Source of the DNA: Flammeovirga pectinis
GTDB lineage: Bacteria; Bacteroidota; Bacteroidia; Cytophagales; Flammeovirgaceae
DNA length: 64,000 nucleotides
Assembly: GCF_003970675.1 (NCBI RefSeq)
Contig: NZ_CP034563.1
Location: forward strand, 997,501 to 1,061,500
Direction of reading: 5' to 3'
Shown here piece after piece: positions 6,967 to 28,722 of this stretch. Both the position numbers and the translations under genes were made by a program. Below the pieces are notes generated by a model. It searched no databases. It had not been told where the DNA came from and saw only the letters and a program-made list of their open reading frames with translations. The stretch's first letter is position 1, and every line of letters starts with the position of its first letter.

Positions 6967-6977
6967 ACATTAATTTT

Positions 6978-8144: not shown

Positions 8145-8227
8145 AGTAAGTGATAATTGGGTAAATGTCTTTTCAAAATCAAAACATCTGTTAATTAAGA
8201 AAAGTTCATAATATCACAATTACATGA

Positions 8228-12071: not shown

Positions 12072-14220
12072 TAGAGGTTAAAATTCCACCAATAACATTA
12101 CAATGTGTATCCAACAAATAGCTTTGATTCTTTACATCAAGTTGATTAAAACTTTTGTGTAGTTCAAATACATAAAACGCTTCTGAAGACAAGTTTATCC
12201 ATTCCATCCATTCTGTCGAAATCCTTGAAGGGGGAGTGATAATGAAAATGTAATTATATGATGTTCTTAAATCCTTTAGTTTATTGAACCAGTCCTCTGG
12301 AAGAAGGTAATCATATGGAGATTTCTGTTCTTCAGATAAATTAATGATTGAACAGTCATTAATGGTATCAATATCATCAAGACTTTTATATTCTTCTTTA
12401 ATTTCTTGTTGTGATAAAGGCACATTCCAATCAGCATAAAAAAGTAACGTTTTTATGCCCGTTTGTAGGAGCATTTCTTTAATAATTAAAATTGTATTTA
12501 ATGTTATCGGGTTACTTCTAGCGTCAACAAATGAGATGATATTTGTATCTTCTTCTATACTTAGTATTGTTCTTCTTAAAAGTCTATAGTTATCTGTAGT
12601 AACTTGATTAATACTATTGTCTTTTTTTTCTTTTCTTTTAGCAAGTATTTTTTTAATAAAAGCAGGAATAAATATACTCCTTTCCTTATCAGGTTTTGGT
12701 TGAGTTATTGTACTAATTATCGGAATTAATGAATCTTTTTCAAATTGAAATGGGAGGTGATATTTGGGATCAAAAATTATTGTACTAGTAATAATTACAA
12801 TGAATAAAATCAACGACCCAATAAAAGAACCAATTACAATTAATGCTCTTTTAGATTTCTTGTGTTTGATAGGAAAGTTAGCACTTTCAACTATAAAGAA
12901 GTTATGCCCAGCATCGTCTTCAAGAATTTCTGCAAAATATTTTTTTTCTAATAGTGTTAAGTAATATTTTTCTTTCGTTTTTATCTGATGTTCCATTTTT
13001 TTGATATTTGAAATTATCTCAATAAAATGGTCAGATTGTTTTGATAGCTGATAAAGTTCTTGGTTCATCACCTTAATCATAGCTTCTTCTTTTACATAGT
13101 CAATTTGATCTTTTACATAATCATTGACCATTGTTTGCTTTGTTAAGCTAGGATCGTAAGTAGTATTAGAGATTGAACTTGATATACTTTTTTGAATATT
13201 TTTTTCAACACTCACAATCTTAATATTTAGCTTGTCCATATAATCTGTGGGTAACCTTTCTAGATTATAAGAATTGTATTCCTTTTCTTGTTGGAGCTTT
13301 CTTAAGGAGTCTTTTAAAACTATTATTTTACTATTTATTGACTCGTTTTCATTATTAAAACCAAAGTCTTTATTCTTATTTAATTTTTGTTCGATGTATG
13401 CAATTGATTCTTTTTTAGAAGCAAGATCTTTTCTAAGTTTGGCAACAGAGTTTTGTAATTCAATTCTTCTATCAATTAAATATTTTGTTGTTTCATCAAC
13501 ATCAATGACTTTCTTTTTCCTTTTATATTCTTTAAGCGAGTCAAGTAAAATATTAAGCTCTTTTTGTGTGCTATTACATGTGCCCTCTATACTTTTTCTT
13601 TTTTCTGAATAACGTTTTTGAATTTCATGACGGTACTCTCTAATCCAAGCATTTGTAATTGATTTCACAATAAATTTAGCTGCAATAGGGTTACTATCTT
13701 CTACTTTAACATCAATATATTTACTACTACTAATACGATTAATTGCAATTCTATTATTAATATCAGAAGTACTAAGATTATTGTATATAAGAATATTATT
13801 AATTGTGATATCAATTGGTCTTTGCATATCTAAAGAAGAGTAGCTTTCGATTAAGAATTTTGCTCTTCTTATAATTTCATCATCCTTAAATAAGTTATTT
13901 GCTGAATTGATATTGTAAAATTTATCTTTTCCAAGGCATGCTATAAGTATTTCAAGTTGAACTTGTTCTGTTACCCTTTTTATTCTTGCAATTTCTAATA
14001 AATCTGTAAACATTAAGCCAATTTCAAAAAGCTGTAACGATTTACTAGTAATTGATAAACTACCATCTGTTGTTAATTCAAATTGCATTTTAGCCTTAGA
14101 CTCATATACCTTAAACTCTCTCATGTTTAGATAAAGCACTAAGGAAGTAACTAATGGTATTCCCAACCATAAGTACCACCTTTTTAAGACACCTTTTATT
14201 ATGTAAAATAAATTCTCCAT
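12061..14220 (-). CDS. Wzz-like polysaccharide copolymerase with degenerate tyrosine-kinase-like domain
   Basis: The 719-residue product has a Wzz-type layout. A first membrane helix (about residues 15-31) precedes a large periplasmic region rich in coiled coil (about 200-440), and a second helix follows (about 456-482). The cytoplasmic C-terminal domain (about 545-719) follows the BY-kinase fold: NYRLLRRTI, a beta strand IISFVDA, then YNYIFIITPP and a final NVIGGILTSNG. However, the Walker A position reads DARSNPITLNT, with no GK[ST], and there is no C-terminal tyrosine cluster. The protein therefore probably controls chain length without kinase activity. It lies 2 bp downstream of the TolC-like gene. 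Confidence 0.85.
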   Translation of the reverse strand: MENLFYIIKGVLKRWYLWLGIPLVTSLVLYLNMREFKVYESKAKMQFELTTDGSLSITSKSLQLFEIGLMFTDLLEIARIKRVTEQVQLEILIACLGKDKFYNINSANNLFKDDEIIRRAKFLIESYSSLDMQRPIDITINNILIYNNLSTSDINNRIAINRISSSKYIDVKVEDSNPIAAKFIVKSITNAWIREYRHEIQKRYSEKRKSIEGTCNSTQKELNILLDSLKEYKRKKKVIDVDETTKYLIDRRIELQNSVAKLRKDLASKKESIAYIEQKLNKNKDFGFNNENESINSKIIVLKDSLRKLQQEKEYNSYNLERLPTDYMDKLNIKIVSVEKNIQKSISSSISNTTYDPSLTKQTMVNDYVKDQIDYVKEEAMIKVMNQELYQLSKQSDHFIEIISNIKKMEHQIKTKEKYYLTLLEKKYFAEILEDDAGHNFFIVESANFPIKHKKSKRALIVIGSFIGSLILFIVIITSTIIFDPKYHLPFQFEKDSLIPIISTITQPKPDKERSIFIPAFIKKILAKRKEKKDNSINQVTTDNYRLLRRTILSIEEDTNIISFVDARSNPITLNTILIIKEMLLQTGIKTLLFYADWNVPLSQQEIKEEYKSLDDIDTINDCSIINLSEEQKSPYDYLLPEDWFNKLKDLRTSYNYIFIITPPSRISTEWMEWINLSSEAFYVFELHKSFNQLDVKNQSYLLDTHCNVIGGILTSNGK

Positions 14221-14222
14221 AA

Positions 14223-14873
14223 TTATTCTGAAATCAACAATTCAAGCTCATGTTTTGCAAGTACTGCACCTACTTCTGCTTCTACTTTTTGAACTTGAGT
14301 TTCATGAAGTTTTTGTTCTAATAATAAATAATCTTCCATTTTAGCTTCACCTCTTAGTAATTTATCTTTTGTGATTTGAAGCATCTCTTTCTGGCTGTTT
14401 TCTTGTTCGGTTATAATTTTAAGTTTTTCTGTAGACTTAATATAATTAGTGTATATAGTGATGTATTCTCTTTCTACAATTTTCTGTTGATGTCTATACT
14501 CCATTTGTTTCTTGGTAATAAGATGCTGAGCTGCTTTCACTCTATTATTTAAAGAAGTAATGGTGAAAAGATCTATTGTTAATCCTAGACCAATATCAGA
14601 AAAAGCACTTACACTTGTAAGCGTATTATTAGTAGAATATTTAAACGTACTTACAGAAAAAGAAAATGAGGATAACCAACTCTTCTTCACAGTGACAAGG
14701 TTTTCATTTGCAATTAAAATTTCTGCATCCTTAGCCTTTAATAAATAGTTGTTTTCTAGGCCAATAGCTGACAATGAATCTATTTGAGAACTTACGTATA
14801 GTGGTCTTTTTTGAGCTTCTGCATAAAATGTGATAGTTAAAATGAAAAGAGAAATAGTGTATTTTAGGTTCAT
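14223..14873 (-). CDS. Half-length TolC-like outer-membrane factor
   Basis: The 216-residue product has a signal peptide (LFILTITFYAEAQ) followed by one TolC-type repeat. An amphipathic helix, two beta strands (WLSSFSFSVSTFKY and IGLGLTIDLFTI) and long helices with LITKKQMEYRHQQ and LLRGEAKMEDYLLLEQKL are visible. Typical TolC proteins are about 450 residues with two such repeats, so this is a single repeat, not an obvious truncation: start, stop and signal are intact. It is first in the leftward operon. It may form the outer-membrane exit for the polymer, since no Wza-type gene is present; that is inference. Confidence 0.75.
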   Translation of the reverse strand: MNLKYTISLFILTITFYAEAQKRPLYVSSQIDSLSAIGLENNYLLKAKDAEILIANENLVTVKKSWLSSFSFSVSTFKYSTNNTLTSVSAFSDIGLGLTIDLFTITSLNNRVKAAQHLITKKQMEYRHQQKIVEREYITIYTNYIKSTEKLKIITEQENSQKEMLQITKDKLLRGEAKMEDYLLLEQKLHETQVQKVEAEVGAVLAKHELELLISE

Positions 14874-15075
14874 GTTAATATCATTTGAATTATAATATAA
14901 AAAGAAGAATTCAGATAGTATTAGTACTGTTGTAATGTTTATATGCTTTTTATTGAATAGTACAATTTTAATAATTTATGCTGATTTGTAATATTTGATC
15001 AATAAGTAGTAATCTATTTATTTGTAGTGTTATGAGTAAAATTTGTTTTATATATTAAGTAAAACAAAATTTAAA
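14874..15075. promoter_or_regulatory. Divergent promoter region of the polysaccharide locus
   Basis: About 200 bp of very AT-rich DNA separate the first genes of the leftward and rightward polysaccharide blocks, so both promoters should lie here. TAATATTTG-like and TATTTATTTG-like sequences occur on the plus strand at about 14990-15025, but none fits TAnnTTTG exactly. I see no strong inverted repeat. Confidence 0.4.
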
Positions 15076-16152
15076 ATGATGTCAATTGAATGGCTATCTT
15101 GTGTAGAAAAAGGTTGTGGAATTGGCCAATATTCAGCAGCTATTTGTGAAGAACTATTTCACCAAAATATTTCGGTTAAATTACGTAGAAAAGGTGGTGA
15201 TGAACTTGATTTTGTGGAAGGATATAAGTATAAATCTTTTAGAAATTTAAAAGATTATATTGCTCCTTATTTTCTTAGCAAAAATTTACATACTGTAGAT
15301 AATAAACCAACGGTATGGCATGCTGATAATATAGATGCATTTACTGGTTTATTATGGAGTAAAAAATATAGTGATGCTCTTAAAGTAGTTACTATTCATG
15401 ATGTTATACCAAAAGCTACAAATCAATTGAATCTATTTCAAAATTATTATTACAATTATCAATTAAAAAATAGTATTGAAAAAAGTGATTTAATTATTAC
15501 GGTTTCAGAATTTTCTAAACAAGATATTATTAACCATACATCTGTAGAACCTCATAAAATTAAAGTAGTTTATAATGGTATAAATCATGATCTTTTAAAA
15601 CCTGTTTTTAATAAGAATAATCCAAAGTTTACAATAGCTTATTTAGGTGGTTTGGGAGCTGCTCATAAAAACGCGACAGCACTAATTGAAGTAGCTAATA
15701 TTTTAGAAAAAAGAGGGAGGGAATTTACAATGAAAATAGGAAGCGGAAATGCTCAATTGACAGCATTGCCAAGACTTGTACAAAAATATAATTTAAAGAA
15801 TATTGAGTTTGTTGGTTTTATAGAAGATAAATTGAAACCTCAGTTTTTAGGAGAAGCAGATTTATTTTTATTTACGTCAAAATACGAAGGATTTGGATTA
15901 CCTCCTTTAGAAGCAATGGCCTGTGGAACGGCTACTATTTCGACTCAAAATGCATCATTAAAAGAAGTTTTGGGAGATGGAGCGTTATTAACCTCCACAG
16001 ACCCAGAAGATATTGCCAATAAAGTTGAGTTATTAATGGATGATACTGCTCTTAGATTAGAATACCAAAATAAAGGTATTGAAAGAGCAAATCAGTTTTC
16101 GTGGAAAAAAGCTGTCATTCAATTGATGGATGAATACAAAAGATTAATGTAA
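15076..16152 (+). CDS. Glycosyltransferase family 4, first gene of the rightward operon
   Basis: The chosen ATG at 15076 gives 358 residues. An upstream in-frame TTG would add 11 residues (FYILSKTKFK) that look like read-through. The protein has a KGCGIGQYSAAI N-terminal motif, VVTIHDVIPKA, YLGGLGAAHKNA and the E-x7-E signature EGFGLPPLEAMACGTA near residue 271. It is a GT-B retaining glycosyltransferase adding a sugar to the lipid-linked repeat. It is paralogous to the GT4 at 8228-9319. Its stop shares a TAATG junction with the next gene. Confidence 0.87.
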   Translation: MMSIEWLSCVEKGCGIGQYSAAICEELFHQNISVKLRRKGGDELDFVEGYKYKSFRNLKDYIAPYFLSKNLHTVDNKPTVWHADNIDAFTGLLWSKKYSDALKVVTIHDVIPKATNQLNLFQNYYYNYQLKNSIEKSDLIITVSEFSKQDIINHTSVEPHKIKVVYNGINHDLLKPVFNKNNPKFTIAYLGGLGAAHKNATALIEVANILEKRGREFTMKIGSGNAQLTALPRLVQKYNLKNIEFVGFIEDKLKPQFLGEADLFLFTSKYEGFGLPPLEAMACGTATISTQNASLKEVLGDGALLTSTDPEDIANKVELLMDDTALRLEYQNKGIERANQFSWKKAVIQLMDEYKRLM

Positions 16153-16931
16153 TGAAGATTAATGTACCAGTTGATCGTTTTGATTTAAACATTGACCCAA
16201 ACTGGAAAGTCCTTGAGATTGGAGGTGGTCATAATCCACACCCAAGAGCAAACGTAATAGTTGATAAATACGACAATACCAATAATGGACACAGGGCAGG
16301 AGATATTGTTATTAGAGAAGGACAAGAATTCCATTTAGCAGATGGAGAGGACTTACCTTTTGATGACAACGCATTTGATTATGTAATTTGCTGTCATGTT
16401 CTTGAACATGTAGACAACCCTGTTAAATTTATTAGTGAAATGTGTAGAGTAGCTAAGATGGGGTATTTAGAAGTTCCCTCTTTAATGGGTGAATATCTGG
16501 TTCCAAAAGGAGCACATGAATGGGTGTTTTTATCAATTAATGATACAATTGTAGGAAAGAAGAAAGCAAGTATTAGAGGTTTGGGCGAAGGGATTGATTT
16601 TGGAGATTTCTTCTTGTATTATCTTTCAAGAGAATCAATAGCTTTTAAATTGCTCATTGCAACTTACCCCGACATTCTAACAGTTAGATATCAGTGGAAA
16701 GATTCTCTGCCAATAAAAATTGATTTATCCGAAGAAGAAGAAAACTATTTTACGAAAGCATGGTCTAAAGAGGAGATATTAAATCAATTTCCTAAAAGAT
16801 CTTCAAAGAAAGAATTAACCTTATTTTTTAATGCTTTTATTTTACTTTCGAAATCAATGATTAACAAAATTCTGAAAGGGTATAAACTGAGAAAACTAGA
16901 TGATTCAATTGGTTTAAATTCAAAAAAATAA
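16152..16931 (+). CDS. SAM-dependent methyltransferase (class I)
   Basis: The 259-residue product has the SAM-binding motif VLEIGGGHNPHP, an acidic strand end VIVDKYD, LADGEDLPFDDNAFDYV and the post-motif CCHVLEHVDNPVKFI, a standard type 11 methyltransferase core. The C-terminal third is specific to this protein, with acidic and basic helices. Placement inside a glycosyltransferase operon suggests that it methylates a sugar or caps a glycan chain. The start codon overlaps the previous stop by 1 nt, and the next gene begins directly after its stop. Confidence 0.82.
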   Translation: MKINVPVDRFDLNIDPNWKVLEIGGGHNPHPRANVIVDKYDNTNNGHRAGDIVIREGQEFHLADGEDLPFDDNAFDYVICCHVLEHVDNPVKFISEMCRVAKMGYLEVPSLMGEYLVPKGAHEWVFLSINDTIVGKKKASIRGLGEGIDFGDFFLYYLSRESIAFKLLIATYPDILTVRYQWKDSLPIKIDLSEEEENYFTKAWSKEEILNQFPKRSSKKELTLFFNAFILLSKSMINKILKGYKLRKLDDSIGLNSKK

Positions 16932-17828
16932 ATGGATATAAGTGTAATTGTTCCCACTCATAATAGAGAGAATCTAGTAATTCAGTTGGCCGAATCACTT
17001 AAAAGGCAAACAATTGATATTGCTAATTATGAAGTAATTTTTATTTGTGATGGCTGTGTTGATAACACTGTGTCTTTATTAAATGAATTATATGGCAACC
17101 TAATAAATTGGAGGATAGTTGGCATTGAGCAATCTGGTCCTGCAAAAGCTAGAAATACGGGAGCAGCTTTAGCTAATGGTAAATATTTAGCTTTTACAGA
17201 TGACGATTGCATTGCCAATACAAATTGGTTGGAATGTATAATTTCTGTATTTAATAAGGCTGAACCTTCAGTTATAGGGTTAGAGGGAATGACTTTTACA
17301 GATAAAAAAAATGTAACTCCATTAACTCATCAAATTGAGAATTTAAACGGAAACCCTGCAGTACCTACTTGTAATGCTGCTTTTAAAAAAGAAGCGTTTT
17401 TACAATTAGATGGTTTTGATGAATCTTTTCCATTTGCACATAATGAAGATGCAGATTTTGCTTGGAGAATGAAGGAAAGAGGTGAGATTTTATTTATAAG
17501 TGATATGGGAATTTATCACCCTCCAAGAAAAGAAAAGTTAAGTAAATTAAAGACTAGGATGAAAATTCTTGAGAGTGAATTTCATCTATACTATAAAAAT
17601 AAAGAGTTGTATAAAAAGTATAGAAATACATCTCCTTGGCGCACAATATATGTAGAAGTTTTTTTATATCATCAACTAAGAATGCTTAAGCATGTTCTTG
17701 GTTTTTTCTACAAACCTAAGTTATGTTTAGAGGGGATTGTACTCGTTTTTTCTTGGTGGATTAATTTAATAGAATTACTGCCATCATTTTTAAAAAAAGA
17801 TCACTATTACAAAAAATTATTTGCTTAA
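16932..17828 (+). CDS. Glycosyltransferase family 2
   Basis: The 298-residue GT-A enzyme begins ISVIVPTHNREN, with CDGCVDNT, SGPAKARNTGA and the metal-binding FTDDDC. NEDADFAWRMKERG supplies the second acidic motif. There is no signal peptide and at most one C-terminal hydrophobic stretch (VLVFSWWINLIELL), so it probably acts on the inner face of the membrane. It starts immediately after the methyltransferase stop and ends 3 bp before the next gene. Confidence 0.87.
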   Translation: MDISVIVPTHNRENLVIQLAESLKRQTIDIANYEVIFICDGCVDNTVSLLNELYGNLINWRIVGIEQSGPAKARNTGAALANGKYLAFTDDDCIANTNWLECIISVFNKAEPSVIGLEGMTFTDKKNVTPLTHQIENLNGNPAVPTCNAAFKKEAFLQLDGFDESFPFAHNEDADFAWRMKERGEILFISDMGIYHPPRKEKLSKLKTRMKILESEFHLYYKNKELYKKYRNTSPWRTIYVEVFLYHQLRMLKHVLGFFYKPKLCLEGIVLVFSWWINLIELLPSFLKKDHYYKKLFA

Positions 17829-17831
17829 AAT

Positions 17832-19016
17832 ATGCATAAAAACATTCCTATAGTAATGCAAGGTTTAACTCGGTATGATGCAGATTACGGAGCAACTTCT
17901 TTGTCTTTAGCAAAGGAATGGGCGAAAGAGCGATTAGTATTTTATATAGACCATCCTTTTACATACAAAGACAAATGGAGTGGAAATTATCAGGAAGATT
18001 TTAAACATAGAGAAGTAATATTTTCAAGTAAAGAACTGTTTTTAAGACCTTTTAATTCTCTTCCTAATTTTATTAATATTACACCTGCTGTTATGTTTCC
18101 TATTAATTTTTTAAATGATGGGTTACTATATCAGAAACTTAAAAAAGTGAACTTAAAGAAGATAATAAAGACACTCAATAAAGTTTTAAGTCACTTTAAT
18201 ATAAAAGAGATTATTTATATTAATTCTTTTAACCCTGTATATGATATCACTCAAATTGGTTTTAAAAATAAATTATCTGTTTATCATTGTGTTGATCTGA
18301 TTTCTGGTGAAAGGTACATTGCAAAGCATGGTATTAAAGCAGAAGAAGGTTGTGCAAAAAATGCAGATCAAGTAATAACAACTTCTGATCAATTAAAAGA
18401 AAATCTTCTTAATTTTAATAAAAATACAGAGGTTGTTTATAATGGTGCAGATTACATGCACTTTCAGAAAGAGGAATACATTCTCCCTAAAGAATATGAA
18501 ACAATCAACACAAAGAAGATAGTTGTCTATGTCGGAAATTTAGGACTTAGAATTGATTATAATTTAGTTGAACAAATTGCACTAGACAATAAAGAATTAA
18601 ATTTTGTGTTTATTGGACCAATAGACACAAGAGAGTTTAAAGGCGAGAAAGTAATGGCTTTGGATAATGTTTTCTTTTTAGGGAAAAAGAAAATTGAAGA
18701 GGTTCCGGATTATATTTACTATGCAGATTATTGTCTTATTCCTTTTGTAATAAATGAGCTAACTAAATGTATTTATCCTTTAAAAATCAATGAATATTTT
18801 AGTCTTGGTAAACCTGTTTTAACAACCCCTTTCACAGACTTGTCAAATTTTAAAAATTTGGTAATTCCTTTTACTTCAACATCTACTTTTAAAAACGGTA
18901 TTAATAAAGTAGTTGAATCTGATGATTCAATTGAAAAGCGAAAAGCTTTTGCAAAAAGTAACCGATGGGAGATAAAAGCCAAAGAGTTTCTTCAATATAT
19001 TGAACAAATGTTATGA
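17832..19016 (+). CDS. GT-B type glycosyltransferase
   Basis: The 394-residue product has a GT-B C-terminal half: KIVVYVGNLGLRIDYNLV, then NFVFIGPIDT, VFFLGKKKIEEVPDYI and KINEYFSLGKPVLTTPF, where the usual acidic signature is KINEYF. The N-terminal half includes VMQGLTRYDADYGATS and VYHCVDLISGE. This pattern resembles the TuaH-like group of glycosyltransferases, but I cannot assign a donor. It overlaps the next gene by 4 nt. Confidence 0.78.
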   Translation: MHKNIPIVMQGLTRYDADYGATSLSLAKEWAKERLVFYIDHPFTYKDKWSGNYQEDFKHREVIFSSKELFLRPFNSLPNFINITPAVMFPINFLNDGLLYQKLKKVNLKKIIKTLNKVLSHFNIKEIIYINSFNPVYDITQIGFKNKLSVYHCVDLISGERYIAKHGIKAEEGCAKNADQVITTSDQLKENLLNFNKNTEVVYNGADYMHFQKEEYILPKEYETINTKKIVVYVGNLGLRIDYNLVEQIALDNKELNFVFIGPIDTREFKGEKVMALDNVFFLGKKKIEEVPDYIYYADYCLIPFVINELTKCIYPLKINEYFSLGKPVLTTPFTDLSNFKNLVIPFTSTSTFKNGINKVVESDDSIEKRKAFAKSNRWEIKAKEFLQYIEQML

Positions 19017-19624
19017 AGAGAATAAAAGCATATTTACAGAATAATCCATCTATAAAAAAGATTATTCATTCCATGATAATAAGTAATTATAGACCTCGTT
19101 TTTGGGTGAGGTTACTTTGGAATCCTTTTGTTCATAAAATCGGAAAAGGAGTTGTAATTAGAGCTCAAGTAAGAAGGGATGTTTTACCTTTCAATAAGTT
19201 TGAAGTAGGAAATAAAACAATTATAGAAAGTTACTCTGTTATTAATAATGCTGTTGGTAATGTTACAATTGGTAAGGAGTGTGTAATTGGTTTTGGTAAT
19301 ACAATTATAGGACCTGTAGAAATTGAAGATGATGTTATCCTTGCTCAAAATGTAGTTATATCGGCATTAAATCATTTATACGAAGATGTTTCAAAACCGA
19401 TAGCGAAACAGGGCATAACTGTAAATAAAATTATTATTGGGAGTAACAGTTGGATTGCAGCAAATGTAAGTATTGTTGCTGGCGTGACAATCGGTAAACA
19501 TTGTGTAATTGGAGCTGGGACTGTGGTTACTAAATCAGTACCAGATTATCATATAGCAATAGGCAATCCTGCTCGGTTAATAAAGAAATATAATCATACA
19601 ACTGAAAAATGGGAAAAGATTTAA
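19013..19624 (+). CDS. Left-handed beta-helix (hexapeptide) acyltransferase
   Basis: The 203-residue product contains [LIV]-G-x4 hexapeptide turns (VGNVTIGKECVIGFGNTII, IIIGSNSWIAANVSIV, GVTIGKHCVIGAGTVV). It ends in SVPDYHIAIGNPARLIKK, typical of CatB/WbbJ-like O-acetyltransferases that use acetyl-CoA. The LNHLYED segment places a histidine near the expected active-site loop. It probably O-acetylates a sugar of the repeat unit. It overlaps the upstream gene by 4 nt and the next gene by 16 nt. Confidence 0.88.
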   Translation: MKRIKAYLQNNPSIKKIIHSMIISNYRPRFWVRLLWNPFVHKIGKGVVIRAQVRRDVLPFNKFEVGNKTIIESYSVINNAVGNVTIGKECVIGFGNTIIGPVEIEDDVILAQNVVISALNHLYEDVSKPIAKQGITVNKIIIGSNSWIAANVSIVAGVTIGKHCVIGAGTVVTKSVPDYHIAIGNPARLIKKYNHTTEKWEKI

Positions 19625-20538
19625 TCTCCATAATTACAGTAAATTATAAGAATAGAAAAATCACTGAGGAGTTCTTACACTCTATTGTAAAATTAGACAG
19701 AAATGATTTAGAAGTAATTGTTATAGATGTCGACCCTAGCTTCGATAACACCCAGCATTATAGAAAAATATTTTTTAACGTAATAGTTATACACATTGAG
19801 GAAAATATTGGATTTTCGGCTGCAAATAACCTTGGGATTGATATATCTACCGGATCTTTTTTGTATTTTACTAATAATGATACAGAGTTGACAATAACAA
19901 GTATTGATCCTCTTGTAACATTTTTAAAAAATAATGATGTAGGCTTTATTAGTCCAAAAATAAAATATTATGACAGTAAAAACATTATTCAATATGCAGG
20001 GTATACCAAAGTGAACGCTTTAACTGGTAGAAATACTACAATTGGAGAGTTTTGCCAAGATGAAAAAAAAGAGTTCTCAAAATCTTACGAAACTACCTAT
20101 ATACACGGTGCCGCAATGATGTGTAAAAAAGCATTAATTGAAGAAGTTGGTAAAATGCCTACAGAATACTTTTTATATTATGAAGAATTAGATTGGTCTT
20201 CTAAAAGTCATGAAGTAGGTAAAAAGAATTGGTACGTTGGTGCTGCAGAAATTTACCATAAAGAGTCTATGAGTGTAGGTAAGGAAAGTAGCTTAAAAGA
20301 ATATTTTATTATAAGAAATCGAATGATTTTTATGATTAAACACCAAAAACCACTCAAAGCGACACTATTTGTTCTGTATTGTAGTTGTATAGTTATACCT
20401 AAAAGATTAATTATTTTACTACTTAAAAGAAAACCTACAAAATTTATAAATGCACTTATTAATGGATATTTTGACGCATTAAAATTCTTCATCTTCAAAA
20501 AAAGACATATACCTAATAGAGGTCTCAAATTCTTATAA
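19609..20538 (+). CDS. Glycosyltransferase family 2 (rhamnosyltransferase-like)
   Basis: The 309-residue GT-A protein starts LISIITVNYKNRKIT, followed by HIEENIGFSAANNLGID, YFTNNDTEL (DxD-like NDTE) and THIHGAAMM-type acceptor motif YIHGAAMMCKK. EELDWSSKSHEVG is the second acidic site. The layout resembles WcaA/RfbF-like rhamnosyltransferases, though the sugar is not certain. The start overlaps the acetyltransferase by 16 nt, and a second ATG is not evident nearby. Confidence 0.84.
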   Translation: MGKDLISIITVNYKNRKITEEFLHSIVKLDRNDLEVIVIDVDPSFDNTQHYRKIFFNVIVIHIEENIGFSAANNLGIDISTGSFLYFTNNDTELTITSIDPLVTFLKNNDVGFISPKIKYYDSKNIIQYAGYTKVNALTGRNTTIGEFCQDEKKEFSKSYETTYIHGAAMMCKKALIEEVGKMPTEYFLYYEELDWSSKSHEVGKKNWYVGAAEIYHKESMSVGKESSLKEYFIIRNRMIFMIKHQKPLKATLFVLYCSCIVIPKRLIILLLKRKPTKFINALINGYFDALKFFIFKKRHIPNRGLKFL

Positions 20539-20586
20539 CCTGTTCATACTACGATACCCAAAACTAATTTTATTATCTTATTTTCT

Positions 20587-21759
20587 ATGTTTTACACTCT
20601 ACTAATATACATATTTTGGATTTTTATTTTCATCACCATTTATTCAGTAATTGGCTATGGCATTGTATTGTATGCATTAGTAAAGCTAAAGGAAAAATTC
20701 TACCCAAAAGCTATAATCTCAAGCATTGATACACCAAAAATTACAGTATTAATTCCATGTTTTAATGAAGCTACAATCTTAGCTGAAAAAATAGAAAACA
20801 CGTATAACGTAACATACCCAAAAGAGAAAATAACCGTAATAGTTGTTGCTGATGGGAGTACAGATAACTCTGAAAAAATAGTAGCTAACTATCCAAATGT
20901 TCAATTTTTACATGAGAAACGTAGAGCAGGAAAAGCAGCTGCAATTAATAGAGCAATCCAAAAAGTTACAACACCAATAACAATTTGTACAGATGCTAAT
21001 ACTCTCTTAAATAAAGATGCATTTATAGAATTAACAGAACGTTTTAGCGATAAAAAAACAGGTTGTGTTTGTGGCGAAAAAAGAATTTTGAAAGATGCAG
21101 ATGATCTGACATCTGCTAGCGAGGGGATGTATTGGAAATATGAATCTAAACTTAAAGAATGGGACGCTAGTTTAAGTTCAGTTATGGGTGGAGCAGGTGA
21201 ACTTATTGCATTTAGAACAGCACTATATCCGCAAATACCAGAAAATGTAATTTTAGACGATTTTTATATAACCATGAAAATCTTGATGAGTGGTTATAAA
21301 GTTGACTATGCACCTAATGCATATGCTTTAGAAGATGGCTCATTTAATATAAAAGAAGAAATGAAAAGAAAAGTACGAATTGCAGCTGGAGGTTTCCAGT
21401 TGATATTTATGCTTTTACCACTTCTTAATATCGTAAAGTATAAACATATATCATTTCAATATATATCACATAGAGTTTTGAGATGGTTAATTGTACCCTT
21501 TGCACTACCAATGCTATTTATAATAAATGGACTGTTGTGTTTTAAATTTGGAGGGATTTATACTTTTGCTTTTGCTGTACAGATCTTACTTTATTCGAGT
21601 GCAATATCTGTGCATTTTATCAGAAAATACTGGACTCCTTACAAAGTCATGATGTTGCCTTATTATTATGCAGTAATGAATTATTGTGCAATACTAGGTT
21701 TCATCAGGTTTGTGGTTGGTAATCAATCATCCGTATGGGAAAAATCAATTAGAAAATGA
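20587..21759 (+). CDS. Polytopic glycosyltransferase family 2 (BcsA/NodC-like)
   Basis: The 390-residue product has an N-terminal membrane helix pair and a GT-A domain with ITVLIPCFNEA, VVADGSTDNSEK, RAGKAAAINRAI, CTDANTLL (DxD site) and VMGGAGELIAFR. VILDDFYITM provides the catalytic-base region, and three to four C-terminal helices follow. The usual QxxRW appears only as KRKVRIAAGGFQ. The layout fits a cellulose/hyaluronan-synthase-like enzyme that may move sugar across the membrane. A 48-bp gap precedes it; it overlaps the following secreted-protein gene by 4 nt, tying glycan synthesis to the T9SS genes. Confidence 0.85.
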   Translation: MFYTLLIYIFWIFIFITIYSVIGYGIVLYALVKLKEKFYPKAIISSIDTPKITVLIPCFNEATILAEKIENTYNVTYPKEKITVIVVADGSTDNSEKIVANYPNVQFLHEKRRAGKAAAINRAIQKVTTPITICTDANTLLNKDAFIELTERFSDKKTGCVCGEKRILKDADDLTSASEGMYWKYESKLKEWDASLSSVMGGAGELIAFRTALYPQIPENVILDDFYITMKILMSGYKVDYAPNAYALEDGSFNIKEEMKRKVRIAAGGFQLIFMLLPLLNIVKYKHISFQYISHRVLRWLIVPFALPMLFIINGLLCFKFGGIYTFAFAVQILLYSSAISVHFIRKYWTPYKVMMLPYYYAVMNYCAILGFIRFVVGNQSSVWEKSIRK

Positions 21760-24299
21760 AAAAAAGTAAATATATAATCGTATTACTTGGAACCATTTTC
21801 TTAATGGGATTTGTAGTTCCTGCATTTGTTTATACCTACCAAACACTTGGTACATGGAGTACTAGTGGTAGGCCAAATTATATTCTATCACAAAAAATAA
21901 TATCTCTAGTAGAAAGAAATGGAGTTTCTGGAGCAATTACAGATTCAATAAATACAAAAGGGGAACGCTTTTTAGAAGATAATAATGTAAATATACTTGT
22001 AGTAGAAGAAGGAGAAGTGTTTATCACTTTAGTTTACGAAGATGCAGGCTGGTTTAATACATTAGGGTTTTATACATATCAATATACGGATATTCCAAAT
22101 TCACCTTCTGATGTATCTGATCCTGTAATTATTTTCCCAAATTTAGATTCGCCAAACGTTGTAGATTCTGGTATGAAAATTAGTTTAGGTACTTATCCTG
22201 CAGGTACTGTGATAGGATTCTTCTTGGTAGCAAAAGGGTGGAGTAATGGAATAATTGATGGTGATTATACTTTATATTCTAATTCTAATTTTAATGAAGG
22301 CATCACCCAAAATTCAAGGTATTCTCAGTTAACAGTAATCTTTGAAAATGACGATACAGATACGCATGATTTTGTTCTTGCAATAGAAGATAATGTAAAT
22401 ACACAAGACGGTGATTATGATTACAATGATGCCGTATTTTTCTTAGATGCCGACCCAGAATTATCAATTATACAATTTGATGGGTTAAATAATGATCCAA
22501 TTGTAGCAAGAGATTCTTTAATTTTTGTTCACCCAAATTATCTTACAGATTTTAATCTTAGACAGTTAGTTACAGATGATAATATTGACCTTGCCACTAT
22601 CACTATAGATACGGTTATAACAGCACAATCAAGTATACAGGTAGAGAGTAGTTTATTAAGAATAGAAACCCAACCAAATGATTCTGAGTATGACACAATA
22701 CGTTATACAGCTTGTGATAATGAATTTCCAAGAACTTGTGATAATGGTGTTTTAATTGTTGGAAAATTACCACCAAATGATCCACCTGTAGCTATACCGG
22801 TACAGAATTTAGAAATAACAAGTAATATTACAAATAACGGAATAGAGATCTCACAATTAGGATCAGACCCTAATGATAACCTTGAGAATGGAGAAATAAC
22901 AATTACTAATTTTCCTAAAAGTGCATTAAATGCTCGTATTGAAGATGGAAAATTACGAATTAATCCTCCAAATACATATTCGGGTATAGATACAATTAAT
23001 TTTAGAATTTGCGATGAAGGGTTCCCAATTTTATGTGATGAAGGGCAATTAGTTGTTCAATCAATAGAATCTAATACACCACCTATTGCTAATCCAGAAA
23101 CGATATATACTTACACAGGTGAGACGGTTTTAGTAGATATTTTAAGGAATGATAGGGCTTTTGAAGAATCTATAGATTTAAACGCCATTACTATTATTTC
23201 AGCACCTAGTTTAGATACTTGTGAGGTGAGAATTAGAAATGGAAAATTAGAACACACAGCTTCTGATTATGTATTGGGAGACTACTCTCTAGTATATCAA
23301 ATTTGTGATGAAAGTGAACCAGCTCTTTGTGATACTACAAGTGTTTATTTTCATATTTCTGATAGTATCGACCCAGATACAATAGTTAGTCAAAATAACC
23401 CTCCAACAGCTGTATTTAATAGAGTAAGAACATCATTTAATGTCCCTATTAATATTGATATCTTAAATAATGATTATGACTTAGATGGTAATTTAGACGT
23501 GGGATCAACCTACATAATTACGCAAGGTAGTGACGGAAATGGAGTATTAGATTTCTTTATAGAGCAAGGAGATTCTGTAGCTGTGATGACATACACACCA
23601 AATGAAAATTTTTCGGGTATTGATATTCTATCCTACAAGATTTTTGATGACGGCTACCCCCAACTCAGTGATAATGCACTGGTAATAATAGAGGTTGAAG
23701 GGGAAGAAAAAGAAGTTGTTTACAACAACGATAACATCTTACTCGATTCTACTGTTATAGATGTTGATGAAACCTTCTGTTTAAACATTCCAGAATTATT
23801 AGCTAGTAAAGGTATACAATGGGTAAACTTTGATACTGATATAATAGTAGACCCATCGATATTTGGTTCGGAAGCTTATATAGATTCATTGGATTTATGT
23901 TATACAGCAACTTCAAGTATCACAGAATCCAATAGAGATTATGTACATTATAAAGTATGTAATAATGGTACATGTATTAATGGGTTACTAATAATTACTA
24001 TTGATGAACCAATAATAATAACACCACCAGACATCATCTTTTTCAATGCATTTTCTCCAAATAAAGATGGGTTTAATGACTTGTTTATTATAGAAAATTT
24101 AAGGTCTTATCCAGATAATTCAGTTACGGTTTACAACAGATGGGGGCAAAAAGTATTTAGTGATGCTCCTTATAATAACGATTGGGAAGGAACAAATATA
24201 GATGGTCAACCATTACCAGATGGAACATATTATTATATAGCTTCTGTAAATAATGGTAATGATTTTTCATACAATGGTTATTTAATAATTAAAAGGTAG
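21756..24299 (+). CDS. Secreted DUF4114 / tandem Ig-like protein with T9SS type B sorting domain
   Basis: The 847-residue product starts with an N-terminal signal/anchor (IIVLLGTIFLMGFVVPAFV). A DUF4114-like domain (about 60-235) ends in DGDYDYNDAVFFLD at about residue 219. Several Ig/cadherin-like repeats (about 245-690) follow, three with a paired-Cys motif such as ICDEGFPILCDEG. The C-terminal domain (about 762-847) begins FFNAFSPNKDGFNDLF and includes VYNRWGQKVF, DWEG and LPDGTYYY, which is the CHU_C/gliding-motility type B T9SS sorting signal. It should be exported by the T9SS and held at the surface. The next gene is its likely PorP/SprF partner. Confidence 0.9.
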   Translation: MKKSKYIIVLLGTIFLMGFVVPAFVYTYQTLGTWSTSGRPNYILSQKIISLVERNGVSGAITDSINTKGERFLEDNNVNILVVEEGEVFITLVYEDAGWFNTLGFYTYQYTDIPNSPSDVSDPVIIFPNLDSPNVVDSGMKISLGTYPAGTVIGFFLVAKGWSNGIIDGDYTLYSNSNFNEGITQNSRYSQLTVIFENDDTDTHDFVLAIEDNVNTQDGDYDYNDAVFFLDADPELSIIQFDGLNNDPIVARDSLIFVHPNYLTDFNLRQLVTDDNIDLATITIDTVITAQSSIQVESSLLRIETQPNDSEYDTIRYTACDNEFPRTCDNGVLIVGKLPPNDPPVAIPVQNLEITSNITNNGIEISQLGSDPNDNLENGEITITNFPKSALNARIEDGKLRINPPNTYSGIDTINFRICDEGFPILCDEGQLVVQSIESNTPPIANPETIYTYTGETVLVDILRNDRAFEESIDLNAITIISAPSLDTCEVRIRNGKLEHTASDYVLGDYSLVYQICDESEPALCDTTSVYFHISDSIDPDTIVSQNNPPTAVFNRVRTSFNVPINIDILNNDYDLDGNLDVGSTYIITQGSDGNGVLDFFIEQGDSVAVMTYTPNENFSGIDILSYKIFDDGYPQLSDNALVIIEVEGEEKEVVYNNDNILLDSTVIDVDETFCLNIPELLASKGIQWVNFDTDIIVDPSIFGSEAYIDSLDLCYTATSSITESNRDYVHYKVCNNGTCINGLLIITIDEPIIITPPDIIFFNAFSPNKDGFNDLFIIENLRSYPDNSVTVYNRWGQKVFSDAPYNNDWEGTNIDGQPLPDGTYYYIASVNNGNDFSYNGYLIIKR

Positions 24300-24302
24300 A
24301 AG

Positions 24303-25220
24303 ATGAAAGTTATTAGTATCTATATAGCACTTCTATTTTTTACAAGTATTGCTTGTATGGGACAACAAATGCCCATGTTTTCGCAGTATGCCTATAATAC
24401 TTTAGCAATAAATCCTGCGATAGCAGGAACTAAAGATGGGGTAAATGCACTTATGCTTTATAGAAAACAATGGAGTGATTATGAAGGAGCACCAAGTACA
24501 ATTAACTTTTCTGCATCTTCTAATGTATCAAAAGGTAAGTTTGGTGTAGGAGTGAATTTTGTAAATGATAAAATTGGGATTTCTAATAATAATACGGTTC
24601 AAGGAGCTTTCTCTTATATTTTAGACCTTAATAATAACCTTAGATTATCTTTAGGAATGTACCTTTCTTTATTAAATTTTCAGCACGATTGGGGGGCATT
24701 AAGAGTGCAACAAACTTCTGATCCGTTGTTTGCAAATGGCAAAGAATCATTATTTAATTTTAATACAGGTTTTGGTGCTTATTTATACAACAAAAGATTT
24801 TATGTGAGTTTCTCAATACCCAATATTTTAGAAACAAAAATGTCTAATACATCAGAAAGTTATTATTTAAGGCATTATTTCTTGAAAGGAGGTGTACATT
24901 TTGATTTATCAAGATCAGTTGAATTTGTACCATCCGTTTTATTCAAATATGTAAAAAACAATAATATTCAAGGTGATATAACCGCTACTTTTATCTTTCA
25001 AAAAATGCTTTGGTTAGGAGTTTCTTATAGATCGGAAGATGGAATAGCCTTATTATCACAAGTTGTTTTAAAAGAACGTTTTAGAATTGGCTATGCATAT
25101 GATTATCCTCATACCGAAATACAAAAAGCAACATCAGGAACACATGAAATCCTTTTAGGAATTAGAATTAATAAAAAGTCTCCACCAAGTAACATTATTA
25201 CAAGTCCAAGATATTTCTAA
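24303..25220 (+). CDS. PorP/SprF family type IX secretion membrane protein
   Basis: The 305-residue product has a signal peptide (ALLFFTSIACMGQQ) and the hallmark start MPMFSQYAYNTLAINPAIAG, followed by YRKQWSDYEGAPST and a beta-barrel with alternating strands (FGVGVNFVNDKIG, LRLSLGMYLSL). PorP/SprF proteins sit in the outer membrane, and dedicated copies lie beside type B T9SS substrates, helping to export or anchor them. It starts 3 bp after the DUF4114 gene and ends 2 bp before the OmpA gene. Confidence 0.93.
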   Translation: MKVISIYIALLFFTSIACMGQQMPMFSQYAYNTLAINPAIAGTKDGVNALMLYRKQWSDYEGAPSTINFSASSNVSKGKFGVGVNFVNDKIGISNNNTVQGAFSYILDLNNNLRLSLGMYLSLLNFQHDWGALRVQQTSDPLFANGKESLFNFNTGFGAYLYNKRFYVSFSIPNILETKMSNTSESYYLRHYFLKGGVHFDLSRSVEFVPSVLFKYVKNNNIQGDITATFIFQKMLWLGVSYRSEDGIALLSQVVLKERFRIGYAYDYPHTEIQKATSGTHEILLGIRINKKSPPSNIITSPRYF

Positions 25221-25222
25221 AA

Positions 25223-27388
25223 ATGAAGTTATTCTTATTTATAAATATTTTTATCATTTGCTCTTTTTCTACTTTTGGACAAAAGCAAAAAACTTTTCTG
25301 GATAGAGCCAATAAGGCTTACGAAAGACAGGAGTTTGCACTTGCAATAGAAAATTTTGGAAATGTACATGCACTAGATCTAGTTTCTAGGTACAGGTTAG
25401 CGATGTCCAATCAGAAAATATTAAACTACAGTAAGGCGCTGACTATTTATAGAAGTATACTTGATAAACAATGGGAAGGTAAAGAAGATGTATATCTAAA
25501 TTATGGTTTAATGGCTAAAAATTTAGGCCAATACGGTAAAGCAGGTGATGCGTTTAAAAAATACCTTTTCAAGTATCCTCAAGATGCAGATGTGAGAGAT
25601 TTATACTTATCATGCCAGCAAGATTACTTAAATGAATTACAAAAAAATAAATATTCTGTTCAAGTAGAAAATGTGTTATTCAATTCTCCTGAAAGAGACA
25701 TGAGTCCATTGATCTTTGGAGAAGGTATAATTTATTCTTCAACCAGAAGAGATTTAAATGAAGGAGATGTTCATCATAGAGACGGTGATAATTTTTTAGA
25801 AATGTACCTGATCAATAAAGATGAAAATGGGATGTTTTCAAATTCTAATATAGTACATGAGCATATTGCTTCAAATTTTCATGTAGGCCCATCTACTTAT
25901 AACGAAAGCAAAAGCGAATTTTTCTTTACTGTAAATCTACCAAGACAATCGTTTAAAGATGATAAGCATCAGATTGTTCATCATTTACAGATTTATCAAT
26001 CAAAATACAATCCAGAGAAAAACACTTTTACTCGACCGTCTGAAATTAACCTCAATAAAAAAACGCATTCAATTGGTCACCCAACAATATCAGATGATGG
26101 TACCAAGTTGTATTTTATTTCAAACCAAGAAGGTACACATGGAGGTACAGATATTTTTGTATCTCATTTACAAGACGATGGAAATTGGGGTGAACCTGTT
26201 AATCTAGGCAATGTTATAAACACAACGGGTAATGAACTATTTCCATATTGGTATGACGATAACACATTGTATTTTTCATCAGATAGACATATTGGACTTG
26301 GTGGATTGGATATTTTTAAGGCTACAATGGAAAACGATAGTGTAACTAATATAGAAAATATAGGAGCACCATTTAATTCTTCAACAGATGATTTTAGTAT
26401 AGTTTTTAATAAAGGGAGTAGTGTAGTTGAAGGCTTTTTTACATCAAATCGTACTGGTGGAATTGGTTCTGATGATATCTATATGTTCAAACAAGAAGAG
26501 AAAGATTTTGTTGTTTTAGTAATAGATAGTCTAACAAGAGAACCTATAGAAAATGCTATTATTGAATGTTACGACAAACAGAAAATGGCAACACATAATT
26601 TTGTTACTAACACTACTGGATTTGTTCGTTTTAATGCAGAGCAAAAAAATCAGATAGAGTCTATAGCGGCCATGTCGTCTACTTATAAATACAAGGAGTT
26701 ACCTATTGCACAAATGGGTAGACAAGAGAATATTTATATTATTGAATTAGTAAAAGGAACAAACTTACAACTTATTGGTAATGTATACGATGCAGTTTCT
26801 TTAGAACGAATAAATAACTCAGAAGTCTTCCTTTATGATGGAGATTCTACTGTAATTAAAAGCATTGGTAATACGGTAGAAGGGCACTATGAAATTATAT
26901 TAAATAGATTACCAATAAATAATTTCTTAATCTCTAATGCAGAAGGTTATACCTCAGAAAATACAGTAATTGCTAACCCGAATCCTGATAAATTTGGTAT
27001 TATTCATCAAGACATTTATTTGAAAAAAGTTAGAAATGAAAACTTATTAAAAATAGAAAGTATTTATTATGAGTTCGATTCATCACGTTTAACTTCAAGT
27101 GCAATTACTAAATTAAGAAATGTATTATCATATTTGTCAAATAATGAGAATTCATTAGTAGAATTAAATGCACATTGTGATGTAAGGGGCTCTGAGAGAT
27201 ACAACGTTAAATTATCTTTGGATAGAGTACATGCCGCTATGTCGTTTTTAGTTGGTAAAGGAATTGATAAATCAAGAGTTCGAATTGATTATCATGGCGA
27301 GAGTATAACATATACAGATTGTATAGACTGTTCAGAAAATGAACATCAATTAAATAGAAGAACAGAAATTCGAATTATTAAGCCATAA
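25223..27388 (+). CDS. PorE-like TPR / beta-propeller / carboxypeptidase-regulatory / OmpA protein
   Basis: The 721-residue product has a signal peptide (FIICSFSTFGQ) and TPR-like helices (about 22-135). PD40 propeller blades (about 150-420) include SIGHPTISDDGTKLYFIS, GGTDIFVS and LYFSSDRHIGLGGLDIF. A carboxypeptidase-regulatory-like domain (about 430-590) follows, then an OmpA C-terminal domain (about 605-721) with YYEFDSSRL, HCDVRGSERYN and a final RRTEIRI. This order matches PorE of the T9SS, which links the outer-membrane complex to peptidoglycan. It is last in the rightward operon and converges with the flippase gene, with an 11-bp gap. Confidence 0.88.
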   Translation: MKLFLFINIFIICSFSTFGQKQKTFLDRANKAYERQEFALAIENFGNVHALDLVSRYRLAMSNQKILNYSKALTIYRSILDKQWEGKEDVYLNYGLMAKNLGQYGKAGDAFKKYLFKYPQDADVRDLYLSCQQDYLNELQKNKYSVQVENVLFNSPERDMSPLIFGEGIIYSSTRRDLNEGDVHHRDGDNFLEMYLINKDENGMFSNSNIVHEHIASNFHVGPSTYNESKSEFFFTVNLPRQSFKDDKHQIVHHLQIYQSKYNPEKNTFTRPSEINLNKKTHSIGHPTISDDGTKLYFISNQEGTHGGTDIFVSHLQDDGNWGEPVNLGNVINTTGNELFPYWYDDNTLYFSSDRHIGLGGLDIFKATMENDSVTNIENIGAPFNSSTDDFSIVFNKGSSVVEGFFTSNRTGGIGSDDIYMFKQEEKDFVVLVIDSLTREPIENAIIECYDKQKMATHNFVTNTTGFVRFNAEQKNQIESIAAMSSTYKYKELPIAQMGRQENIYIIELVKGTNLQLIGNVYDAVSLERINNSEVFLYDGDSTVIKSIGNTVEGHYEIILNRLPINNFLISNAEGYTSENTVIANPNPDKFGIIHQDIYLKKVRNENLLKIESIYYEFDSSRLTSSAITKLRNVLSYLSNNENSLVELNAHCDVRGSERYNVKLSLDRVHAAMSFLVGKGIDKSRVRIDYHGESITYTDCIDCSENEHQLNRRTEIRIIKP

Positions 27389-27399
27389 ACGAATTATTT

Positions 27400-28722
27400 T
27401 TATTTTGTCTGCCTTTTATTTATTACCATATCAATCACTCGTTTTAGCTGACTTTTCATACTATAAATCATTGAAAATAAATTTAGATTTTCATTTCTTT
27501 TAAAGTAGATAAATATTAAAACTGAACCAACTAATTCAGTAATTAGGCCAGGTAATACGGTGCCTATTTCCCCATAAAGTTCAACAAATACAATAGAAGT
27601 AATTATTAATAAGATACTATTAAAGATTACTATATTGGTACTGTACTGTGGTTTTCCTTTTGCATTTGTGTAGCTTGCAAAAAAGGAACCTAGAGGAGCA
27701 AACAAAGAACTAATAACCAATATAATCAATAGGTAAAATGAATCTGAATAAGTATTTCCATGTAGGAATGTTATGATTGGTTTAATAAAGATAATAAACC
27801 CTATAGATATTGGAGTAATGATAAGATATACCTGACTGAGTGTATCAATAAAAACTTCTTTCAATTTATCTAAACTTCCTTTTTCAAAAAGTTTTACTAT
27901 CCTAGGGTAAAAGATTAATTGAATTGAGTTTGATATAGATAAAATGATAACTAAATACCGTTGTGCCAATCCTAATAATGCTGTAATTTCTAGGGATAAA
28001 ATGCCAGCAGATAAGAATAAAGTCATTTTTGATGAAATAGTACCAAACAATGCTTTTAAAAATCCCTGCTTTGCATATAACATAATACTACTGAAAGTCT
28101 GTTTATTGATTGTACTCAAAATGATCTTCTTAAATGGGATAGTAAACAGAGAAAAACAGAATGAACTTAAATAAATACCAATTAAACAAAAGACCAATTC
28201 ATTAATGGATAGTTGGTACTCATGGACAAAGAAGAGACTAATTATTAATAGAGTAAGTGTAACACTATTAATTAGTACTGCTATATATATTGTCTTTTTA
28301 CTCTTATGAATATTCTCAACCCATTTTAAGAGGTTAATGCTTAACGAGAATAGGGGGTATACTATTAATAAACTTGATAAATTGGGAAACAGATCAATAA
28401 AGCCAATACTAGAGATTATAATCCCAATAAGAAGTTCGATTAATATAATTGCAATTAAAACCGTTTTATAAGTTTGATTGGCATCAATTATATTCTTTCC
28501 AGAAGAAAATTTTACCAAAGCAACATATACAACACCTTCTCTAATATTAATTGAGAAATTAAAAATTGAGAAAAATAAAAACCATAATCCAACATCTTCA
28601 GTAGAATACTCTCTAGTAATAAATAGAAGAAGTATATACCCAAAAAGAAGTTCACTAAATGTTAGAGAGTAGGTAATTACAAAAGGATATTTTGTAATAA
28701 TATTCTTGATGTGTCTGTTCAA
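27400..28722 (-). CDS. Polysaccharide repeat flippase (Wzx-like, MOP superfamily)
   Basis: The 440-residue protein has about twelve hydrophobic segments and few charged residues between them. The N-terminal LFGYILLLFITREYSTEDVG matches Wzx/MATE-type flippases, in which a helix is followed by a G/S-x-x-D-x-G turn. These proteins move undecaprenyl-linked repeats across the inner membrane. It is transcribed towards the PorE-like gene and probably has its own promoter near 28730-28800. It completes a Wzx/Wzy-type pathway with the polymerase and initiating transferase. Confidence 0.85.
   Translation of the reverse strand: MNRHIKNIITKYPFVITYSLTFSELLFGYILLLFITREYSTEDVGLWFLFFSIFNFSINIREGVVYVALVKFSSGKNIIDANQTYKTVLIAIILIELLIGIIISSIGFIDLFPNLSSLLIVYPLFSLSINLLKWVENIHKSKKTIYIAVLINSVTLTLLIISLFFVHEYQLSINELVFCLIGIYLSSFCFSLFTIPFKKIILSTINKQTFSSIMLYAKQGFLKALFGTISSKMTLFLSAGILSLEITALLGLAQRYLVIILSISNSIQLIFYPRIVKLFEKGSLDKLKEVFIDTLSQVYLIITPISIGFIIFIKPIITFLHGNTYSDSFYLLIILVISSLFAPLGSFFASYTNAKGKPQYSTNIVIFNSILLIITSIVFVELYGEIGTVLPGLITELVGSVLIFIYFKRNENLNLFSMIYSMKSQLKRVIDMVINKRQTK

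Follow-up and report, generated by a model that had tools for sequence, protein, structure and literature searches.

What joins the synthesis of a polysaccharide to a secreted surface protein and its outer-membrane partners? The question is raised by an operon at positions 15076..27388 of a 64,000-nucleotide stretch of the Flammeovirga pectinis genome (contig NZ_CP034563.1; the whole stretch is called the window below), where genes for glycan synthesis run directly into a surface module of the type IX secretion system (T9SS). The reading that we regard as best, with a probability of about one half, is that the T9SS protein is a lectin tether, delivered to the surface by this system and retaining the polymer made by its own operon.

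A sequence-only reading of this DNA had described ten tightly packed genes: five glycosyltransferases, a methyltransferase and an acetyltransferase, then a T9SS type B protein, a PorP/SprF protein and a PorE-like protein. All ten open reading frames (ORFs) were recovered at their positions, and Pfam and NCBIfam searches agreed with the assignments. The nine junctions measure -1, 0, 3, -4, -16, 48, -4, 3 and 2 bp, so that the widest gap is 48 bp. The operon starts with the ATG at 15076, and a TTG-started ORF opens at 15043. The plus-strand genes, and the two end domains of the T9SS protein, are as follows.

15076..16152, plus strand: GT4 glycosyltransferase (Pfam/NCBIfam scan)
16152..16931, plus strand: S-adenosylmethionine methyltransferase (family scan)
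16932..17828, plus strand: GT2 glycosyltransferase (family scan)
17832..19016, plus strand: GT4 glycosyltransferase, TuaH-like (Pfam/NCBIfam)
19013..19624, plus strand: hexapeptide-repeat acetyltransferase (Pfam/NCBIfam)
19609..20538, plus strand: GT2 glycosyltransferase (family scan)
20587..21759, plus strand: GT2 glycosyltransferase, PgaC/IcaA-like, overlapping the T9SS gene by 4 bp (Pfam/NCBIfam)
21756..24299, plus strand: T9SS type B surface protein of 847 amino acids, kept in nine of nine Flammeovirga genomes (family scans)
21816..22484, plus strand: DUF4114 head of this protein, residues 21-243 (39.0 bits; Pfam gathering cut-off 27)
24036..24296, plus strand: its type B C-terminal sorting domain, residues 761-847 (PF13585, CHU_C, 92.8 bits; TIGR04131 54.0, cut-off 35)
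24303..25220, plus strand: PorP/SprF outer-membrane partner (TIGR03519)
25223..27388, plus strand: PorE-like protein with a PD40 propeller and an OmpA-type domain (Pfam)

Because of these overlaps and of a conserved gene order, the plus-strand genes very likely form one coupled unit. Absence of the order in relatives had been named as an argument against a functional link; the succession of glycosyltransferase, T9SS, PorP and PorE genes was found in all nine Flammeovirga genomes. With starts taken from the longest ORF, the glycosyltransferase-T9SS junction in these genomes is an overlap or a gap of 0-5 bp, while the T9SS-PorP and PorP-PorE junctions measure 3-8 and -1 to 3 bp, respectively. 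The genomes fall into two layouts: five show the divergent arrangement of the window, and four have one collinear run in the order TolC-like, Wzc-like, GT2, Wzy, initiating transferase, GT4, GT2, GT4, acetyltransferase, GT2, GT2, T9SS, PorP, PorE and GT4. In the collinear genomes the triad of T9SS, PorP and PorE genes is flanked by two glycosyltransferase genes, with an entry junction of 0 bp and an exit junction of -1 bp. The earlier picture of a surface module that ends a glycan operon thus does not extend to these four genomes, where the module sits inside it. The methyltransferase was not found within the regions examined of the four collinear clusters, nor were most of the window genes that flank the cluster found in the regions examined of the other layout. 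With the closest pair set aside, the T9SS proteins share 34-40% identity with their window counterpart, and the PorP proteins 58-72%. Between the window and its nearest relative (G005), the ratio of nonsynonymous to synonymous substitution rates (dN/dS) is 0.03-0.04 for the triad, indicating purifying selection, and comparable (0.03-0.16) for the other cluster genes.

A search for a separate promoter ahead of the last three genes gave no convincing candidate. The Bacteroidota-type promoter pattern TTG-N17-23-TAnnTTTG has nine matches on both strands of the whole window, two of them overlapping; the one at 21535-21568 is at chance level and is absent in G005. Sigma-70 patterns are ill-suited to the phylum Bacteroidota, and a sigma-70 scan of the window returned fewer sites than shuffled sequences did (64 versus 79.0). 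One sigma-70-like match (21750-21778, plus strand) spans the T9SS start codon, and its second hexamer therefore lies inside the gene. The terminator scan gave two sites versus 4.3 in shuffles, with none at the last three junctions.

The 847-residue protein consists of a signal peptide-like start, the DUF4114 head, an immunoglobulin-like (Ig-like) Big_9 stalk and the CHU_C/type B sorting domain. A T9SS translocon is present in the same genome, as judged by an SprA_N match, and the product is very probably, by prediction, a surface T9SS type B protein. Two AlphaFold2 models of the head, covering residues 21-262, reached predicted local distance difference test (pLDDT) values of 77.5 and 87.0 and matched LecB-family folds. 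Six site residues, E211, D212, D220, D222, N224 and D225, occur unchanged in all 39 aligned domains. Their pattern, E-D...D-x-D-x-N-D, mirrors E95-D96-D99-D101-N103-D104 of LecB/PA-IIL with a longer loop (4-10 residues), the equivalence resting on pattern and order rather than on superposed atoms; the calcium- and sugar-site ligands of LecB were taken from PMC8752737. DUF4114 has already been likened to the PA-IIL, RS-IIL and BclA lectins (PMC9109919). We predict that the head very probably has a LecB-like calcium lectin fold. Across Flammeovirga, with the closest pair excluded, the head is better conserved (43-53% identity) than the stalk (31-40%). A comparison of the head profile with PDB is not by itself evidence for a lectin, LecB chains appearing only at E 0.84-1.6, below a SusD-like and a ribosomal protein. 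A second DUF4114-type B protein occurs near the cluster of F. aprica (G004, L040:15128-17746), with no PorP directly adjoining.

The PorP protein scored 247.7 bits on TIGR03519 (cut-off 90.55). It has no cysteine in its mature chain or C-terminal tail and so lacks the Cys-X-Cys of the gliding carrier SprF, which is needed for movement and attaches SprF to the moving track (PMC12635249); in addition, a PorE-like gene is present here. Six other full-length PorPs are encoded in the genome, three with a single C-tail cysteine and none with Cys-X-Cys. The PorE-like protein reached 288 bits on the PorE model against a cut-off of 600 and is thus PorE-like, not PorE; its PD40 and OmpA domains both score above cut-off, and peptidoglycan binding is predicted. 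Altogether the genome holds nine PorP_SprF matches, and PorP and PorE-like genes other than those of the cluster occur in it (L196, L197). Labels outside the window rest on polysaccharide models built from the cluster's own genes, which distant glycosyltransferases may escape; by these models, none of the eight regions around the other PorP_SprF matches contains a labelled glycosyltransferase, and one (L201) contains a short Wzc-labelled ORF. In a PorP tree the Flammeovirga sequences, nine in all, group in a single supported clade, G017 lies nearby, and Flexithrix and locus L060 remain unplaced on long branches. Two PorPs with a C-tail cysteine (L199, L200) are directly followed by ORFs of 2,571 and 2,538 amino acids, which makes them candidate gliding adhesin pairs of F. 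pectinis.

The proposed mechanism would run as follows. The plus-strand genes would be produced as one coupled unit, and the 847-residue protein would leave the cell through T9SS as a type B substrate but remain bound to its dedicated PorP partner, a step that takes family membership from the window sequence and behaviour from homologues. The PorE-like protein would tie PorP to peptidoglycan, which would make the complex static and place it outside the gliding machinery. On its Ig-like stalk, the DUF4114 head would then bind the cluster's polymer and hold it at the cell surface or between cells; here fold and site residues come from prediction and conservation, and the ligand is inferred. Analogy with two published triads guides this scheme. 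In Porphyromonas gingivalis a type B protein assembles with PorP and PorE, and the C-terminal domain of PorE binds peptidoglycan (PMC9143113). In Flavobacterium johnsoniae, the operon of Fjoh_3952 includes a PorE-like gene, and fusions to the sorting domain of this protein gave static foci only, while mobile substrates are without a PorE-like gene; the authors propose anchoring to the wall (PMC12618676). Since such a triad is reported as static and the window PorP lacks the SprF C-tail cysteines, we propose a static tether that runs from peptidoglycan via PorP to the polymer, and the complex is probably, by this analogy, a static wall anchor. That the cluster's own polymer is the ligand of the head is about an even bet, based on operon logic and supported by LruC-type proteins near polysaccharide clusters. 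The polymer had originally been proposed to be exported with, attached to or bound by the secreted protein. Binding fits best, given the LecB-like head, the invariant site pattern and a kind of triad reported as static and proposed to be wall-anchored. Joint export is unlikely, since a polymerase and a TolC-like gene are present in the cluster itself, and covalent attachment is less likely, since PorU is reported to be dispensable for type B secretion (PMC9143113).

The polymerase and TolC-like genes belong to a part of the cluster that lies beyond the ten genes first described, namely a minus-strand half at 3687-14873 and a Wzx-like gene at 27400-28722.

14223..14873, minus strand: half-length TolC-like outer-membrane protein of 216 amino acids with one OEP repeat (PF02321, 85 bits)
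12061..14220, minus strand: Wzc-like chain-length protein, labelled from position and a sub-threshold GNVR match and conserved in gene order
10863..12071, minus strand: GT2 glycosyltransferase (family scan)
9316..10863, minus strand: Wzy-type polymerase (Wzy_C, 43.7 bits, above cut-off)
8228..9319, minus strand: GT4 glycosyltransferase, found right after the PorE-like gene in four relatives (family scan)
6978..8144, minus strand: response-regulator receiver fused to a bacterial sugar transferase, the chain-initiating enzyme (Bac_transf, 188.6 bits, above cut-off)
5662..6966, minus strand: LruC-type lipoprotein (DUF4842) with a lipobox-like start (partial DUF4114, 20.8 bits, cut-off 27)
3687..5669, minus strand: LruC-type lipoprotein (DUF4842) with a lipobox-like start (partial DUF4114, 24.0 bits as protein and 27.3 in six-frame search, cut-off 27)
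27400..28722, minus strand: Wzx-like flippase, convergent with the operon (NF041503, 27.7 bits, below cut-off 300; no Pfam match)

With an initiating transferase and a Wzy polymerase, the cluster has the two enzymes expected of a Wzx/Wzy exopolysaccharide cluster. The Wzx-like gene is retained in six of eight other Flammeovirga regions. For the Wzc-like protein no family was found at E 0.001, and the GNVR match (PF13807, E 0.032, 14.6 bits) is below the cut-off of 27.7.

Beyond Flammeovirga, we surveyed the best 80 of 292 PorP loci found. A T9SS sorting-domain gene lies directly upstream of PorP in 75 of these 80, and 46 additionally have a PorE-like gene directly downstream, so that such triads are common. 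A general rule that PorP genes stand beside polysaccharide genes was rejected: among the 59 loci of at least 11 kb (21 of the 80 were shorter and were dropped, and L090, L091 and L093 overlap in one genome), at least three labelled polysaccharide genes occur in six of six Flammeovirgaceae loci versus one of 53 others. The lone positive among the 53, L060, has its glycosyltransferases on the opposite strand, and L083 and L115 have one labelled gene each. The Wzc-like protein, used as query, matched 82 of 241 genomes of the order; in two of the 19 regions examined outside Flammeovirga and Flexithrix (L170, L174), one gene encodes a type B-like sorting domain. Flexithrix has its own run of initiating transferase, T9SS, PorP, PorE, TolC-like and Wzc-like genes. 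LruC-type proteins are found within or next to polysaccharide clusters not only in the window but also in three further genera of the family and in four of 26 DUF4114 loci elsewhere in the class, their DUF4114 domain being full in the other genera and partial in the window's two. These 4/26 loci compare with 1/53 PorP controls for DUF4114 in polysaccharide clusters (Fisher p 0.038, post hoc, with three of the four positives from one family and with L253, a contig edge with a Wzy-labelled fragment, not counted), which suggests a weak class-wide association. Positions of LruC-type proteins near an initiating transferase are 3687-6966 in the window, L054:759-2750, L165, L169, L258, L265 and L268. 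Separately, a metagenome-assembled genome labelled Chlorobiota (L133) has a 3,060-residue ORF with DUF4114-like and type B sorting domains, followed by PorP and PorE-like genes.

Several of our results weigh against a lectin tether for the cluster's own polymer. Plain Foldseek matches of the head are weak (best E 0.011 and 0.032), and for the better model unrelated folds are interleaved after rank 1. The LecB site needs the C-terminal Gly of a neighbour; since the head is internal (21-243 of 847), this carboxylate ligand is impossible and the domain is LecB-like, not a LecB. Both LruC-type proteins of the window fall under the DUF4114 cut-off when scored as proteins. Within the stretches examined, PorP occurs in none of the 19 Wzc-like regions (from 19 of the 72 matching genomes outside Flammeovirga and Flexithrix), and the linked T9SS protein of Flexithrix has a non-DUF4114 head. 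That head has no Pfam match at E 10, and 74 of 241 genomes of the order contain relatives of it; it resembles a generic T9SS head and is therefore not independent support for a lectin. In G017 a DUF4114 triad has no labelled polysaccharide gene in the surrounding 40 kb, the polysaccharide cluster of that genome being on a different contig. The head profile matched 27 of 395 genomes of the class, including its own, with a T9SS fusion in none of the 26 other best loci. The sewn-in triad thus appears to be a lineage-restricted Flammeovirga trait, with a looser parallel in Flexithrix. Finally, the ligand of the head could be a foreign glycan.

On that last account, which we consider possible but doubtful, the protein would be an adhesin for algal polysaccharides or other cells, co-expressed with the operon for biofilm formation and not binding its polymer. 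LecB and an Acanthamoeba DUF4114 domain do bind ligands on other cells (PMC11934332, PMC8752737). However, a foreign-glycan adhesin leaves unexplained both the 0 and -1 bp junctions that set the triad between glycosyltransferases in four of nine genomes and the recurrence of DUF4114 and LruC-type proteins in other polysaccharide clusters. It is very improbable that the glycan made by these enzymes is joined covalently to the T9SS protein, or serves as an anchor for T9SS proteins in the manner of A-type lipopolysaccharide (A-LPS): although A-LPS is linked to T9SS type A substrates in P. gingivalis (PMC9143113, PMC7468200), the sorting domain here is of type B, for which secretion is reported without need for PorU or PorV (PMC9143113), and a polymerase and a TolC-like gene are as expected for a free or capsular polymer.

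The frequency of T9SS triads, together with a linkage limited to Flammeovirga and the Flexithrix variant, would also allow a historical accident, in which a triad landed behind a glycan operon and was kept by descent. This is very improbable, as the order outlasts two layouts and the deep divergence of the T9SS and PorP proteins while most flanking window genes are missing from the regions examined of the other layout, and the glycosyltransferase-T9SS junction stays an overlap or 0-5 bp in nine of nine genomes. Least credible is a mainly structural cap for PorP/PorE in the secretion apparatus, with the lectin head incidental. Such a role recalls the PG1035-PorP-PorE complex, for which a cap function of PG1035 was speculated on by the authors (PMC9143113), but the genome has other PorP and PorE-like genes, and a cap does not account for a head that is better conserved than its stalk and keeps every site residue.

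Every component of the proposed tether is known, and their combination appears to be new: among the top-ranked titles of a literature search, we recognised no description of an exopolysaccharide operon that contains a T9SS type B-PorP-PorE triad. The gliding adhesin pair SprB-SprF likewise places a type B substrate beside a PorP/SprF partner. The gene for RemA, a surface protein of F. johnsoniae, is not known to lie in an exopolysaccharide operon. RemA is likewise a T9SS-exported surface lectin, whose overexpression is reported to lead to aggregation via galactose-containing exopolysaccharide of neighbouring cells, and thus sets a precedent for action of a T9SS lectin on exopolysaccharide (PMC8481357); it differs in having a type A sorting domain (PMC12618676) and in being a gliding adhesin. 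The PorP-PorE-PG1035 and Fjoh_3952-3951-3950 triads share with the locus a type B substrate, a PorP-like partner and a PorE-like peptidoglycan-binding protein (PMC9143113, PMC12618676), whereas the Flammeovirga substrate has a LecB-like head and its genes follow a glycosyltransferase in nine of nine genomes. The word "polysaccharide" as such is absent from the main texts of these two papers. Wzi of the Escherichia coli group 1 capsule is likewise an outer-membrane lectin that underpins Wzy-type capsule assembly (PMC3791409). Wzi is itself an integral outer-membrane protein, while barrel, stalk and lectin head are separate in Flammeovirga and the head is T9SS-exported. The HfaABD holdfast anchor of Caulobacter is similarly a complex of several proteins dedicated to keeping on the cell a polysaccharide of its own making (PMC6707917), but its proteins are unrelated to the triad, HfaB being CsgG-like and HfaA CsgA-like. 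In Myxococcus xanthus the DUF4114 domain of PilY1.1 was proposed to bind the organism's own exopolysaccharide via Ca2+ (PMC9109919), although PilY1.1 is located on type IV pili and is not a T9SS protein.

Retention of secreted polysaccharide on the Gram-negative cell is understood for few systems, and loci without Wzi-like proteins suggest uncharacterised anchoring mechanisms (PMC6707917). The operon points to one candidate for such an anchor, with its lectin head and six residues as targets for mutation. If the tether is real, PorE-linked type B substrates would gain a biological function, and DUF4114 could be tested as a module that binds exopolysaccharide.

Two features of the minus-strand half may concern export and control of the polymer. 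No Wza-type export protein was found in the cluster, and the genome's two PF02563 matches sit on contig C1; the cluster has the half-length TolC-like gene instead. With its single OEP repeat, this protein may have to assemble with more subunits as the outer-membrane exit of the polymer, replacing Wza. Beside the Wzc-like gene, TolC-like proteins have 216-223 amino acids in Flammeovirga, 233 in Flexithrix and 220-261 where labelled elsewhere (L165-L184). The fusion of receiver and initiating transferase hints at direct phosphorelay control of polymer initiation. In Flexithrix (L054:2789-4412), the receiver protein and the initiating transferase are encoded by separate adjacent genes and are unfused.

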